Shown here: one piece after another, positions 1-4,004 of the stretch
How positions within the stretch are numbered: position 1 is the first letter of the stretch
Layout: the number at the start of each line of letters is the position of its first letter
The notes under the pieces: model-generated
Told to the model about the DNA's origin: nothing
Seen by the model: the letters and a program-made list of their open reading frames with translations, nothing else
Databases searched by the model: none
Assembly (NCBI RefSeq): GCF_021295345.1
Contig: NZ_JAIMJB010000012.1
Coordinates: 1-64,000, forward strand
Origin: Motilimonas eburnea
GTDB lineage: Bacteria; Pseudomonadota; Gammaproteobacteria; Enterobacterales; CBDFNC01
Length of the DNA stretch: 64,000 bases
Reading direction: 5' to 3'
Program-made: the position numbers and the translations under genes

Positions 1-747
1 GCCCCATTCCCCACCCATGTACTTAATGTAATAACCAAATAACGCCATAAGTAACAAGTAAAGCCCAGCCAGCATCAATAAGCTGCTATGAAACACCACT
101 TCACGAGACACATAGATACGCGCAGTCCAATGGGTTGTTCGCCGGGTTGCCAACACTAATAGAGGCAAGCAAACACAGTGAACAAATCCCCTCACCTGCC
201 AAATATCTTGGTCAAATTGATTAAATAAGGCGGCTTGCGCATAGAAGAAAAAGTCAAAACCAAAAATCACCCCTAAATACAAGACCAACGGCTTCAGGCG
301 CCAACGGTGCTCGGGTGTAAGATGACGATAAACTCGCTCAAGTTTCATCATCACCTGTATCACTAAGAAAATATTAAGGTAGTAACTCCACGCAGGAGCC
401 AAAAAAGGCTCGAAATAAAAGCAAATAACCAAAAATACCCAAGCAAACAAGGATAGCCAAACACTGCTGCTGTGGAAAAGCTGCTGTCGGATCCTCACCT
501 CAGGTTGCATCAAACAAACAATGAACACCAGCCAACTCAAACTCCGCAGACCATCAAACAACAAAAATAGCGACACCTCTCCCCAATCGAGTTCAAAGTA
601 AACCAGCACCTGCAAAGCCCAAGCAACCGCAACTAGGCTTACCAAGAGCAATAACCGGCCCGAATTAGATTTGGCCCTAGCAGCCAGCAGCAAGGCAGCA
701 AAAAAAAGATAAGCTAAACCAGCCGAAAAATAGCTCAAAAATGCCAT
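1..747 (-). CDS. prsK: PrsK-like PEP-CTERM system sensor histidine kinase, N-terminal part
   Basis: The frame is open from an ATG at 747 to the left edge (249 codons), so the C-terminal kinase domains lie outside the window. The visible part is a very hydrophobic multi-pass membrane region, with stretches such as FFAALLLAA and LLLMALFGYYIKYMGG, plus the segment VSREVVFHSSLLMLAGLYLL. These match my memory of the membrane sensor region of PrsK, the histidine kinase paired with PrsR in exosortase A (XrtA)/PEP-CTERM loci. The start follows a GGAGATAAGC-type ribosome site. It lies 9 bp downstream of the nucleotidyltransferase gene and is probably co-transcribed with it. The kinase assignment rests on family resemblance because the catalytic part is not visible. 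Confidence 0.72.
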   Translation of the reverse strand, partial: MAFLSYFSAGLAYLFFAALLLAARAKSNSGRLLLLVSLVAVAWALQVLVYFELDWGEVSLFLLFDGLRSLSWLVFIVCLMQPEVRIRQQLFHSSSVWLSLFAWVFLVICFYFEPFLAPAWSYYLNIFLVIQVMMKLERVYRHLTPEHRWRLKPLVLYLGVIFGFDFFFYAQAALFNQFDQDIWQVRGFVHCVCLPLLVLATRRTTHWTARIYVSREVVFHSSLLMLAGLYLLLMALFGYYIKYMGGEWG

Positions 748-756
748 GCTTATCTC

Positions 757-1812
757 CTATGTGTGACGCTGACGAGTGATGGCCTTGCGCAACAAATGCG
801 GTAACAGCAATGACAGCGGCATACGCAACAGGTGACCCCGACAATAAAAACTCAGCTTGGCCCACGTCACATCCCAAGGCTGATTAAACTGGCTCGGAGG
901 CAACATGGCTTTTAATGCCCATCCTTTATCAAATCGCGGTTGTAACCTCGACTGAGTACTGGCTTGTGAGTCAGATGAAATTTCACCAAATAATTGATTC
1001 GCTAGCAGGTGAGTTCGAGCAAATGGCTGGATTAAATTCAGCTCAGAGGCGCGCAGAAATAATTGCTCCGATGTCACCGCTTGTGACAACAAAAAGATGT
1101 CCCTGAGATCACGCCAGCCCTTATCCCCTTCTCCTCCAAGCCATAAATGCGCACAAGCATGCAAGCAAAGGTCAATCGGATCAGGTAACGAAAAAGCCAT
1201 ATCGGCGAGGGGCTGGGCCCGGCTTCTCACTCGCTCAATATCAAACTGCCAACGGCAATCATTCGGTAGCCAATGATGGTGTAAATCCAGCACAATCCCC
1301 GTCTTCTTATGCACAAAAGGCGGCAACTCATGCATCCAAGCTCGATAATATTGCTCATCATAAGCCGACTTACCACGATTATCCCAACCATGTAACCACA
1401 AGCTTCGTTCTGCGCGTTCAAGATCTTGCTTAGGGATTAAGACGTCGATATCCGACATCATTCGCCCCGACGCATTGCGGGTATTGGCGACGTGATAGGC
1501 CGCCCCCTTCAGCAGCATAGGCGAATAGGGCGCTAACGCTTCACCTAACTGCTGTAAGGCCATATTGACGCTCTGCTGCTGATGCCTAACCATTTGTTGC
1601 GCCCAATCTAGCCGCTGAATGGCTCGTTCAGGCAGCCTCGCTTTAAAGGGCAGTAAGTACTCGGCTAACACTCCTATAAGCTGAGTGCGCTCACCAAGCA
1701 ACAAAATTTGATTCCAAACACTGGCGCTAAAGCTTAAATCGCCGTCATCTTGGCGCAACAAGGCCAAAAAGCATTGCGTGGCGTTAGTGTGATCAAGCGG
1801 CAAGGGCGTCAT
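757..1812 (-). CDS. NTP_transf_5-type nucleotidyltransferase family protein
   Basis: This 351-aa soluble protein has a Leu-Lys-Gly segment near residues 101-103 and a Ser-Asp-Ile-Asp-Val-Leu motif at about 120-125. The latter is the paired-aspartate metal site of the nucleotidyltransferase fold. The layout fits the uncharacterised nucleotidyltransferase family (NTP_transf_5), which recurs beside HPr-kinase-like and PqqD-like genes in exosortase and some peptide-modification loci. Its start codon overlaps the stop of the HprK-related gene by 4 bp, so the two are translationally coupled. Substrate and product are unknown. Adenylyl or other nucleotidyl transfer to a small molecule, peptide or phospho-group is the family-level expectation only. 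Confidence 0.75.
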   Translation of the reverse strand: MTPLPLDHTNATQCFLALLRQDDGDLSFSASVWNQILLLGERTQLIGVLAEYLLPFKARLPERAIQRLDWAQQMVRHQQQSVNMALQQLGEALAPYSPMLLKGAAYHVANTRNASGRMMSDIDVLIPKQDLERAERSLWLHGWDNRGKSAYDEQYYRAWMHELPPFVHKKTGIVLDLHHHWLPNDCRWQFDIERVRSRAQPLADMAFSLPDPIDLCLHACAHLWLGGEGDKGWRDLRDIFLLSQAVTSEQLFLRASELNLIQPFARTHLLANQLFGEISSDSQASTQSRLQPRFDKGWALKAMLPPSQFNQPWDVTWAKLSFYCRGHLLRMPLSLLLPHLLRKAITRQRHT

Positions 1813-2744
1813 ATCCCCCCCTCAAGCTCGGCCAGTACACAACTAAAATCTGAATAATCCAGTTGATAAGCACGGCTCTGCGCCACAATATCCGCCAGAC
1901 AAGAGAAAGCTTGCTGCCCTAAAATCGCAAAATTAAAGCTGTTATCCGCAAGCAGCATTAAACACTGTGCAGGGCTCATCGCTTCAAAGCGGCACGCTTG
2001 CTGGGGGGTAAAACGCGGAAAAATCACCCGCTTTATTGGATAGGTTTTCCCCTGCGGGGCGTGGCTGCTTACCGGCGGAGAATAGAGCGCTACCCTCCCT
2101 TTACTGGTTCCACAAAACTCAGAAGAAAGAATACCTTGGCACACACCTGCTTTCTGCCCTTGTTGTAAGCTTGTTTTAACCACTTCTATCGACTCATTTT
2201 TAAGGCTAATCGGGCGCGGCAGCGGGCTCACTTCACCCGACGTTAAATCAATCATGGCAAACTCATCGGAGAGCAGATGCCAGCCATGTAAGCAAAGTAA
2301 GGCACAAAAAGTGCTTTTACCTGAGCCTGGTGGTGCAGGGATCACCATGGCCTGCCCCCCTTTTGCGACCACTGCCGCATGCAAGGTTAAGCAACCATGA
2401 AATTTAGATGCAATACAATAATTCAGCCCCCACTCCCACAATATAGGCAGGTGCGTGCTAGGCATGGAATAAAAGGGAGCGGATTCGCTTTGATAAAATC
2501 GAATTTGAGGTTTAATTAAGCGTCGCCAGCTGTTTTCATATTTTATTTCAATATCAAAACTCGCCACTTGCGGCTCAACGGAGCAAAGGTGATGGGGGTA
2601 ATGCTGCAACAGAAATGTAGCAAAGCTCGCCAAGGGGCTGCGCACTCTAACCAAAAAAGGGGGGATCTCAATGAATAAACCTTGCGCGGCTAACGCACTA
2701 ACGAGGGCATCTTGGGTTGAAGCAATTGTTAGCATCCGTGCCAC
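1809..2744 (-). CDS. HprK-related kinase A
   Basis: This 311-aa protein has a P-loop (Ala-Pro-Pro-Gly-Ser-Gly-Lys-Ser-Thr, residues 137-145) and a following Leu-Ser-Asp-Glu segment (158-161) that resembles the second acidic site of HPr kinase/phosphorylase. The N-terminal ~110 residues are not HPr-kinase-like. This matches the HprK-related kinase A family (HPr-rel-A), defined by its company with a PqqD-like protein and nucleotidyltransferase in PEP-CTERM-encoding genomes. A true HPr kinase is unlikely, since no PTS gene is near. The overlap with the downstream nucleotidyltransferase implies joint translation. The phosphoacceptor is not known. Confidence 0.8.
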   Translation of the reverse strand: MARMLTIASTQDALVSALAAQGLFIEIPPFLVRVRSPLASFATFLLQHYPHHLCSVEPQVASFDIEIKYENSWRRLIKPQIRFYQSESAPFYSMPSTHLPILWEWGLNYCIASKFHGCLTLHAAVVAKGGQAMVIPAPPGSGKSTFCALLCLHGWHLLSDEFAMIDLTSGEVSPLPRPISLKNESIEVVKTSLQQGQKAGVCQGILSSEFCGTSKGRVALYSPPVSSHAPQGKTYPIKRVIFPRFTPQQACRFEAMSPAQCLMLLADNSFNFAILGQQAFSCLADIVAQSRAYQLDYSDFSCVLAELEGGI

Positions 2745-2776
2745 CTTGTGCTGATATTCCAGACCATAACACTCTG

Positions 2777-2806
2777 TTATAACTATAGCACTATATACCC
2801 AATCAA
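2777..2806 (-). promoter_or_regulatory. Possible promoter of the HprK-related kinase gene
   Basis: Reading the minus strand, TTGATT (2801-2806) is followed after 18 bases by TTATAA (2777-2782), about 33 bases before the kinase ATG. This is a weak sigma-70-like arrangement in the 209-bp gap separating the kinase from the PqqD-like gene. The gap holds no ORF. The call rests on hexamer resemblance alone. Confidence 0.25.
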
Positions 2807-2953
2807 CCTGAAGAGGCGTGATTTCAGCAAGGATTTACAGACGTTTTGGCAAGGCATTGAGTGCAGATAATGGTTGTTCCCTTATCGAGATCAATAACGT
2901 GGCATAAACGCCTGTAAAACTTGCCCTTTGGGAACGCCATCGAGCGTTAACCA

Positions 2954-3250
2954 TCAATGCAGATAACGACAACTGATGATGTTCAAGGCGAGCCACTGCC
3001 TAAGTAGCGCATTAAAGCTGGCTTCGGGCTCATCAGAGGCAAGATTCAAAGACTGGTAAACCGCTTTAAGGTCATCTATCGACACACCAGAGCCGGCAGA
3101 AAAACAACTTAGCAAAGGCAATAAAGACGCCTGCATGATGTGCAAGCTATTATCAAATGGGTTGAACACCACTAACTCATCACCAAACAAGCGCCAATCC
3201 AATTGACTCTGAGTATGATAAATACGCTCTTGCGCTGGGCGCTCAGACAT
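2954..3250 (-). CDS. PqqD-like peptide chaperone, HPr-rel-A system type
   Basis: This small 98-aa protein has the layout of PqqD/RiPP-recognition-like winged-helix proteins: an N-terminal strand region with WRLFGDELVVFNP, a middle segment with DNSLHIMQASLLPLL, and a helical C-terminus. In peptide-modification systems such proteins bind a leader peptide. In the HPr-rel-A subfamily the partner is unknown. The start overlaps the end of the upstream 253-aa gene by 8 bp, so the two are translationally coupled, which suggests that protein as its first candidate partner. The family call comes from the hydrophobic pattern plus neighbourhood, not a unique motif. Confidence 0.7.
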   Translation of the reverse strand: MSERPAQERIYHTQSQLDWRLFGDELVVFNPFDNSLHIMQASLLPLLSCFSAGSGVSIDDLKAVYQSLNLASDEPEASFNALLRQWLALNIISCRYLH

Positions 3251-4004
3251 ATAGGCTATCTAAAAATGTTTTAATCGAACCATTCGCAAAGCTAGGCAAA
3301 TTGTATTCATCGTCGCGTCCCTCCAGCATGGCTTCAATCAGCTCACAGCCAAAATCGTAATCTATCGGGTAAGTTAATTCTGGATGATGGGCTAAATGCA
3401 CAATATTAAAGTAAGTGGCAATAGCGATAAATTCTTCCGAGCCTTCTTTCTGCCACAACACCTCCATGATGGGCATGCTGGTAAAGGGGGATGCTGCAAA
3501 GCAGCTAATTTCCCCCAATAAAGTCACTGGCGTCACAGAGACAACCGGCATGGCCCCATTAAGTGTCCCTTGAAACCAGTTTTTACCATTGTTGGTCAAC
3601 ATACCACGGTCATTGATGCCATCTAAAGCTGGCTTACTATAACGAGGAATGCCATTTTCAGCCCCACAGTAATAATGGGCATCCCCATATGCGGGCCAAC
3701 CTAGGTTCCATTCATCGCCAATTTTAGCGCCTACATGTACCTTGTAGTAGCCAGGGCTTCTGCCTGATGCAATACAACTGTCTGGCTCTCGTGCAGAGGA
3801 AGGCGCTAACGAGTGAGCAGCACTGGCGGTATAGCAGGTGCCCGCCCCCATCGCAGAGCGGCTAAAGAAGCTAGACATTAATGGAAGGCCTACACCTAAC
3901 TTACTGCCTCGAATAAGAAATTTCCTGCGACTATCCTGAGCGGCTTGTACTTGGTCCGTTTTATTACTTGCTTGTCTCATCGCTACGTCCATTTTTTCGC
4001 CCAT
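3243..4004 (-). CDS. Tat-type exported protein of unknown function linked to the HPr-rel-A genes
   Basis: This 253-aa protein has a twin-arginine signal: S-R-R-K-F-L at residues 25-30, then a moderately hydrophobic stretch ending near SRSAMGA at about residue 54. The mature part has several cysteines (57, 77, one in a Tyr-Tyr-Cys-Gly segment, one in Ile-Ser-Cys-Phe, one near the C-terminus) and a Gly-Arg-Ser-Pro-Gly-Tyr-Tyr-Lys motif at 81-88. I do not recognise a family. It is first in a tight cluster with the PqqD-like protein, so it may be the exported client of the locus. Starts at codon 1 or Met5 (3992) are both possible. Confidence 0.7.
   Translation of the reverse strand: MGEKMDVAMRQASNKTDQVQAAQDSRRKFLIRGSKLGVGLPLMSSFFSRSAMGAGTCYTASAAHSLAPSSAREPDSCIASGRSPGYYKVHVGAKIGDEWNLGWPAYGDAHYYCGAENGIPRYSKPALDGINDRGMLTNNGKNWFQGTLNGAMPVVSVTPVTLLGEISCFAASPFTSMPIMEVLWQKEGSEEFIAIATYFNIVHLAHHPELTYPIDYDFGCELIEAMLEGRDDEYNLPSFANGSIKTFLDSLYV

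Follow-up and report, generated by a model that had tools for sequence, protein, structure and literature searches.

A Tat-type exported protein as the likely client of an HprK-related kinase, a PqqD-like protein and a nucleotidyltransferase in Motilimonas eburnea

What do the kinase and the transferase encoded at the left end of this stretch of Motilimonas eburnea DNA act upon? The window (the whole stretch analysed, 64,000 nucleotides, whose position 1 is an end of contig C3 of genome G000) opens with five minus-strand open reading frames (ORFs), for which an earlier note had proposed that an HPr kinase-like enzyme and a nucleotidyltransferase (NTase) modify a peptide or protein presented by a PqqD-like protein. 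All five are there and belong to the families that the note had named: a protein with a twin-arginine translocation (Tat)-type leader, a PqqD-like protein, an HprK-related kinase, an NTP_transf_5 NTase and PrsK. Gene linkage, co-occurrence, a predicted fold resembling the recognition element (RRE) of ribosomally synthesized and post-translationally modified peptide (RiPP) pathways, and intact catalytic motifs together lead us to regard the Tat-type protein as probably the dedicated client of an RRE-guided kinase and transferase, modified before its export by Tat. The identity of the client is well supported; from the same evidence we infer leader binding, phosphorylation, a transfer step, the modified residue and the order of these events before export.

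The client gene (3243 to 4004, minus strand; 253 amino acids) shares 8 bp with the gene for the PqqD-like protein (2954 to 3250, minus strand), and the kinase gene (1809 to 2744, minus strand) shares 4 bp with that of the NTase (757 to 1812, minus strand). The kinase scored 289.3 bits against the NCBIfam model TIGR04352 (HprK_rel_A; cut-off 200), and a scan of 397 genomes from the phylum detected this family over its cut-off in 53 of them, at 54 places; 53 of these places, the window included, were read as loci of 4.6 to 20 kb, and the last (genome G030) lies in a locus of 3.8 kb (L037). At 49 of the 54 places the gene immediately preceding the PqqD position encodes a Tat-type protein, and the same arrangement was seen in 8 of 8 further relatives (three Motilimonas genomes, two alphaproteobacterial genomes and three metagenome-assembled genomes of Phycisphaerae). 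These proteins fall into three sequence classes, A, B and C, which have a leader in common and almost nothing else; the window's client belongs to class C.

Four loci (L056, L057, L061 and L074) have neither PqqD nor an adjacent client, and L091 is the only one with PqqD and no adjacent client. In each of the five exceptional genomes (G022, G069, G081, G201 and G248) the client is encoded elsewhere. The class A profile recovered the displaced clients of G022 (E 1.4e-12), G081 (E 1.3e-14) and G069 (E 3.4e-4); that of G201 was found at E 5.8e-44, and that of G248 by a leader match (E 5.5e-4) in an ORF of 152 amino acids ending in SCLNSFFPLGTIN. A PqqD gene comes immediately after the displaced client in G022 (72.8 bits), G069 (68.3 bits) and G248 (46.6 bits); in G201 the PqqD gene remains with the kinase. 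Because the pair persists away from the kinase in those three genomes, client and PqqD move together as a pair. Counted in this way, the client is present in 53 of 53 kinase-bearing genomes. The earlier note had asked whether the Tat protein always accompanies PqqD, and would have counted the absence of both from most genomes with the kinase against its reading; the reverse was found. The note's idea of a protein client for PqqD, kinase and transferase is supported by this linkage, by the count over 53 genomes and by the predicted RRE fold, and so is the identification of that client as the Tat-type protein.

We also searched in the opposite direction, in the same 397 genomes, with profiles of the mature part of the client from which the leader had been removed; this search covers classes A and B, class C clients being too diverse for one profile. 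The class A profile found 26 genomes, all 26 of them kinase-positive. The class B profile found 11, again all kinase-positive, one of which (G097) is marginal (E 8.1e-4, with an internal stop). The probability of such agreement by chance is 2e-26 for the 26 of 26 in class A and 8e-10 for 10 of 10 in class B when kinship is ignored, figures that overstate independence because the genomes are related within lineages. Two genomes hold more than one set of these genes: G137 has, a long way from its kinase, another client-PqqD pair (L140, on contig G137:C66), around which the 7 kb examined revealed neither a kinase nor an NTase, and G383 carries two kinase cassettes with different clients (L073 and L076).

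At E <= 1 the client itself had no match among the families of Pfam and NCBIfam, the TAT_signal models included, and a PEP-CTERM protein was rejected as its identity since no PEP-CTERM model matched. Its relatives in three Motilimonas genomes are 61 to 68% identical to it. The leader, RRKFLIRGSKLGVGLPLMSSFFSRSAMG (residues 26 to 53; 3846 to 3929, minus strand), joins a Tat-like S-R-R-x-F-L motif to a hydrophobic stretch; SRRKFL is present in 4 of 4 Motilimonas-group clients, and twin arginines followed by a hydrophobic stretch are common to 55 aligned leaders. Leaders resemble one another more closely than mature parts do within class A (57% vs 33%, 66 pairs) and between classes (38% vs 27%, 36 pairs), but less closely within class B (66% vs 72%, 21 pairs). 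Three Phycisphaerae loci (L006 to L008) encode, beside PqqD and the kinase, clients of 72 to 144 amino acids as measured from stop to stop, which have only about ten residues after the leader. An AlphaFold2 model of the window's client from four sequences (predicted local distance difference test, pLDDT, 34) was uninformative on its fold, and the best phmmer match among solved structures, a DMSO reductase at E 0.23, was of no use.

Two short motifs mark the mature part of many clients. Classes A and B end in [ST]C[WFY]xS[FLI], and all 15 of the class A rows share C5, C23, G68, C106, W107 and S109. The broader pattern [ST]C[WFYI].S[FLIV] occurs in the last 45 residues of 35/56 clients and in 0/1127 other proteins of the same loci. 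A second pattern, [ST]PG[YFW][WYFV], which belongs to clients from the window's order or class, is found in 11/56 clients and 1/1127 of those other proteins; in the window's client it corresponds to GRSPGYYK (residues 81 to 88; 3741 to 3764, minus strand), a segment kept in 4 of 4 Motilimonas-group clients, with a reservation for positions 87 and 88. The leaders were also inspected for the lasso leader motif, YxxPxL according to the available text of PMC10368454. A related pattern, YxxPx[LIVMA], is present in 3 of 58 main leaders, and 6 of 12 leaders from loci whose kinase falls below the cut-off show a looser form that admits an additional residue; both counts are uncontrolled and serve as a lead only. 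P.[LIVM] is present in 39 of 58 leaders, a rough figure since several leaders were cut at the wrong pair of arginines, and the comparison of how specific this mid-leader proline is could draw on just two further Tat-like proteins as controls.

The protein that would guide the enzymes to the client is, by prediction, an RRE of winged-helix fold. The window's PqqD-like protein matched TIGR04353 at E 8.9e-6 (26.6 bits; cut-off 35), the Pfam PqqD model PF05402 matched nothing in the entire genome at E <= 0.001, and phmmer against solved structures gave nothing for it at E <= 5. Its AlphaFold2 model (pLDDT 85.3) was compared with known structures by Foldseek, whose three top matches were the lasso-peptide B1 protein TbiB1 with leader peptides (5v1v, E 2.8e-3, probability 1.00), followed by other RRE-bearing enzymes, none of the matches reaching E <= 0.001. 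A second aligner placed 5v1v at Z 8.7 (root-mean-square deviation 3.2, 87 aligned) and PqqD (5sxy) at Z 6.3; the fold match alone is no proof of an RRE, because a ribosomal oxygenase that is not an RRE also reached Z 8.5. A PqqD profile trained on these loci found the RRE gene in 44 of 53 larger regions.

The nearest B1 structure, together with a kinase and NTase as in the pseudomycoidin and Bsf clusters, might suggest a lasso-peptide gene cluster, and in several loci an asparagine-synthase-like gene does come after the cassette. The gene of this kind that was scored, in a relative, is however of the XrtA amidotransferase type: it reached 870.6 bits against TIGR03108 and 250.6 bits against the lasso cyclase model, whose cut-off is 525. 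Moreover, the lasso leader-peptidase (B2) domain PF13471 is absent from the Motilimonas genome at E <= 0.001, and the precursor would be a protein of 253 amino acids with a Tat-type leader, not a short peptide. On these three grounds we rejected a lasso cluster, which we consider extremely improbable.

The motifs that catalysis would call for are intact in the kinase. Its P-loop residues G140, G142, K143 and T145, as well as H122, D160 and E161, are kept in 60 of 60 aligned kinases, residues whose catalytic roles we take to be those that they have in HPr kinase. Should the enzyme be an HPr kinase that tunes carbon metabolism beside genes of incidental kinds, it would find possible substrates at hand, since the genome encodes two HPr-type proteins that have serines in the expected region. 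Yet besides TIGR04352 the kinase matched ScmC of the SynChlorMet system (TIGR04249; 28.9 bits, below the cut-off of 125), HprK_rel_B (TIGR04355; 20.6 bits, below the cut-off of 200) and FomB among NCBIfam models at E <= 1, and the canonical HPr kinase model was unmatched in NCBIfam or Pfam at that threshold. The lasting linkage to RRE, client and NTase, and the fusion described below, also argue against such a role. A canonical HPr kinase was accordingly rejected, and we hold this explanation to be very unlikely. The best phmmer match of the kinase among solved structures (E 0.93) was of no use. Small proteins with Tat-like leaders (61 to 189 amino acids, judged by eye) lie upstream of other HprK-like kinases in 11 of 20 loci below the TIGR04352 cut-off (L115 to L134), with other genes as neighbours; the pairing of leader and kinase may thus extend beyond the HprK_rel_A family.

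The NTase belongs to PF14907 (E 5.6e-33); its K102 and G103 are kept in 55 of 55 aligned sequences, and D121 and D123, which form a DxD motif, in 54 of 55. It is encoded within reach and on the same strand at 56 of 63 kinases, and in L059 kinase and NTase are fused in one protein of 706 amino acids. Further enzymes may join them: in eight loci the kinase is directly followed by a member of a cluster of proteins of 555 to 754 amino acids, one scanned representative of which has TPR and Sulfotransfer_3 domains (PF13469, E 1.1e-47). In nine loci (L040, L042, L043, L055, L064, L072, L073, L078 and L079) a protein of 254 to 280 amino acids is encoded at most 3 kb from the kinase; the one encoded in L040 is a serine protease of Trypsin_2 type, and the group is a candidate processing protease for the exported client.

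Taken together, these observations suggest the following course of events. The PqqD-like RRE would bind the leader of the client, a leader that would double as the Tat signal; the HprK-like kinase would phosphorylate a serine or threonine beyond the leader, in the mature part; and to that phosphate a nucleotide or sugar would then be added by the NTP_transf_5 enzyme. The cytoplasm, which supplies the ATP, would be the site of these steps, and Tat would export the client once it was complete, a route that fits better than Sec because modification would precede export. The conserved serine of the C-terminal [ST]-C-x-x-S-[FLIV] is the probable target in many clients of the other classes; in the window's client a serine of another segment, for example that of GRSPGYYK, would have to serve.

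Several observations weigh against this reading. The C-terminal motif is missing from the window's client, neither motif is present in 10 of 56 clients, and both were framed after the sequences had been read. Export by Tat is judged from the sequence, and the Pfam TAT_signal model matched in one client only, at E 0.089. The window's PqqD-like protein lies below the cut-off of its family, and in L073 and L075 to L078 a short unmatched ORF occupies the PqqD position. No PqqD was found beside the displaced clients of G081 and G201, and no NTase near 7 of 63 kinases, one of which (L049) stands at a contig end. Finally, the locus counts are not independent, because the loci are related by descent.

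The same enzymes could instead build an activated small prosthetic group, in the way that such a kinase and nucleotidyltransferase pair works when cofactors are assembled, and this group PqqD would help to load on a cysteine or serine of the client, making the client an exported cofactor protein. Tat typically carries proteins that acquire their cofactors in the cytoplasm, and a client of this kind would agree with its use here. The invariant C5, C23 and C106 of class A, together with Ser109 (15 of 15 rows), point the same way, as does the fact that kinase and NTase remain together where client and PqqD have left them (G022, G069 and G248). Against it, no gene for small-molecule synthesis is found repeatedly beside the cassette across lineages, and the closest characterised RRE kinase and NTase partners act directly on the precursor, according to the available text of PMC10368454 and PMC9266682. 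We consider a cofactor role unlikely and favour direct modification of the Tat-type client.

Does the cassette belong to the exosortase system, as the earlier note had suggested when it tied the genes to PEP-CTERM proteins and surface polysaccharide? The fifth gene, which follows that of the NTase after 9 bp, encodes the N-terminal part of PrsK (1 to 747, minus strand). TIGR02916 matched it over residues 4 to 249 only (185.8 bits; cut-off 300), because the contig end at window position 1 cuts the gene. The missing part, which aligns with residues 247 to 668 of the protein in L001 (a relative's locus), opens another contig of the same genome, C2, and is followed there by PrsR, so that C2 very probably carries the operon onward, with C2:1 as the leftward continuation of window position 1. 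In the window's lineage the operon would thus run on into the PrsK/PrsR genes of an XrtA/exopolysaccharide region. XrtA itself was found at C2:15931-16707 (303.6 bits; cut-off 208), about 18.7 kb from the kinase if C2 and C3 abut, which would place an exosortase to the left of position 1, where the earlier note had suggested looking for one. In three Motilimonas genomes XrtA is on the same contig as the cassette, 18 to 19 kb from the kinase. Across the 397 genomes XrtA over cut-off and the kinase occur together in 27, the kinase alone in 26, XrtA alone in 11 and neither in 333, a co-occurrence far above chance (odds ratio 31); at least 9 of these 27 genomes, among them the window's own by virtue of contig joining, have the two no more than 50 kb apart.

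This link is strong but lineage-dependent, holding in 27 of 53 kinase genomes. The 26 genomes with the kinase only and the 26 with class A clients are one and the same set, which lies outside the window's class of bacteria; in the representatives read, the neighbouring genes encode glycosyltransferases of XrtA type and the XrtA amidotransferase. In class B loci the cassette stands between phosphate-transport (pst) genes and glmU/glmS. The class B setting and the 26 genomes without XrtA over cut-off indicate that the cassette is no part of the XrtA system as such. The window's client, moreover, has no PEP-CTERM anchor, as no NCBIfam family matched it at E <= 1. Of the proposed tie to PEP-CTERM and exosortase, then, the co-occurrence with XrtA stands, and a general dependence on it does not.

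Upstream of the client, sigma-54-like -24/-12 sites were seen in ten loci (L043, L055, L064, L065, L070, L072, L073, L077, L078 and L079), that is, at p < 0.05 in 10 of the 18 loci of the window's order or class; the scan used weights that we set ourselves, and its region was narrowed after a first scan. The best site upstream of the window's client (p about 0.08) was not significant, and the same holds for L001 to L003. The sites fit the control of PEP-CTERM genes by PrsK/PrsR and RpoN that is reported in the available text of PMC1569441 and PMC9850573. Both these sites and the joint occurrence of kinase and XrtA (27 genomes with both, against 26, 11 and 333) would be expected if the genes were merely co-regulated members of an XrtA/PrsKR exopolysaccharide group and not one pathway, the Tat protein being a surface protein and the enzymes acting elsewhere. 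The ties of client to PqqD and to kinase nevertheless persist without XrtA over cut-off, in all 26 class A genomes, and also where the cassette adjoins pst and glmU/glmS, which makes simple co-regulation distinctly improbable.

One feature of the window's locus could be taken to divide it, namely the gap of 209 bp between the PqqD and kinase genes to which the earlier note had drawn attention and which we confirmed. About 150 bp of it (2793 to 2942, no strand assigned) are a dispersed repeat that has 28 further matches in the same genome (29 with itself). Eleven of the other copies are 86 to 91% identical over 136 to 153 bp, and the repeat was aligned with six genomic copies. The equivalent gap in L001 is only 36 bp and free of the repeat. 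The gap is thus the insertion of a dispersed repeat and shows no sign of a split in the operon. As single-stranded DNA, the repeat folds better than shuffled sequences (z -2.65).

Parts of this arrangement have been described before. NCBIfam already treats the kinase and PqqD as partners, calling the latter "HPr-rel-A system PqqD family peptide chaperone", and the window resembles that system in a kinase over the TIGR04352 cut-off and a PqqD-like protein whose match to TIGR04353 is weak but whose position and predicted fold agree with it; the names of these two families, however, mention no client, NTase or sulfotransferase. The closest characterised relatives are enzymes of lasso-peptide tailoring, which likewise combine an HprK-type or peptide kinase, a discrete PqqD-like RRE and an NTase. 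According to the available text of PMC10368454, BsfK phosphorylates Ser3 of the precursor and does not accept the leaderless core as a substrate, the RRE protein BsfB1 greatly speeds this phosphorylation, and the cluster includes a predicted nucleotidyltransferase, BsfN. In pseudomycoidin, PsmK phosphorylates the C-terminal serine, and PsmN, annotated as a nucleotidyltransferase, has been connected with the one or two hexoses that the phosphate carries (PMC9266682, available text). Genes for a kinase, PqqD and an uncharacterised nucleotidyltransferase also recur in lasso-bearing ruminal genomes, as far as the available text of PMC7533575 goes. In those systems the enzymes act on a ribosomal precursor and the RRE accelerates the kinase; unlike them, the clients here are Tat-type exported proteins of 130 to 290 amino acids with no threaded ring, and the leader-peptidase PF13471 was not found in the window's own genome. 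With the XrtA/PEP-CTERM regulon (PrsK, PrsR and PrsT, in the available text of PMC1569441 and PMC9850573) the locus shares PrsK as the next gene of the operon and, in Motilimonas genomes, an XrtA gene 18 to 19 kb away; it differs in a client without a PEP-CTERM model and in a cassette that also occurs without XrtA over cut-off.

What is added here is the Tat-type client, its co-occurrence with the enzymes, its motifs and the fusion of kinase and NTase. The open literature searched, which left most subscription journals and all of bioRxiv outside, yielded no paper on the HprK-related kinase, TIGR04352 or TIGR04353, and, judged by title and the start of the abstract, nothing related that joins PqqD or an RRE to the twin-arginine pathway. 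As far as these searches show, the client and its two-way co-occurrence with the kinase have no previous description.

With a named client, a likely guide in the RRE and a candidate site in 35 of 56 clients, the function of this cassette is directly testable. A bolder version of our proposal, to which we give rather little credence, is that the product is a RiPP-like phospho-sugar on a folded protein, handed to Tat through a dual-purpose leader, and that in exopolysaccharide lineages the residue forms a covalent tie to the surface polysaccharide. If the favoured reading is true, RRE-guided chemistry would extend from small peptides to Tat-exported proteins of 130 to 290 residues, and XrtA/exopolysaccharide loci would gain a branch devoted to protein modification.

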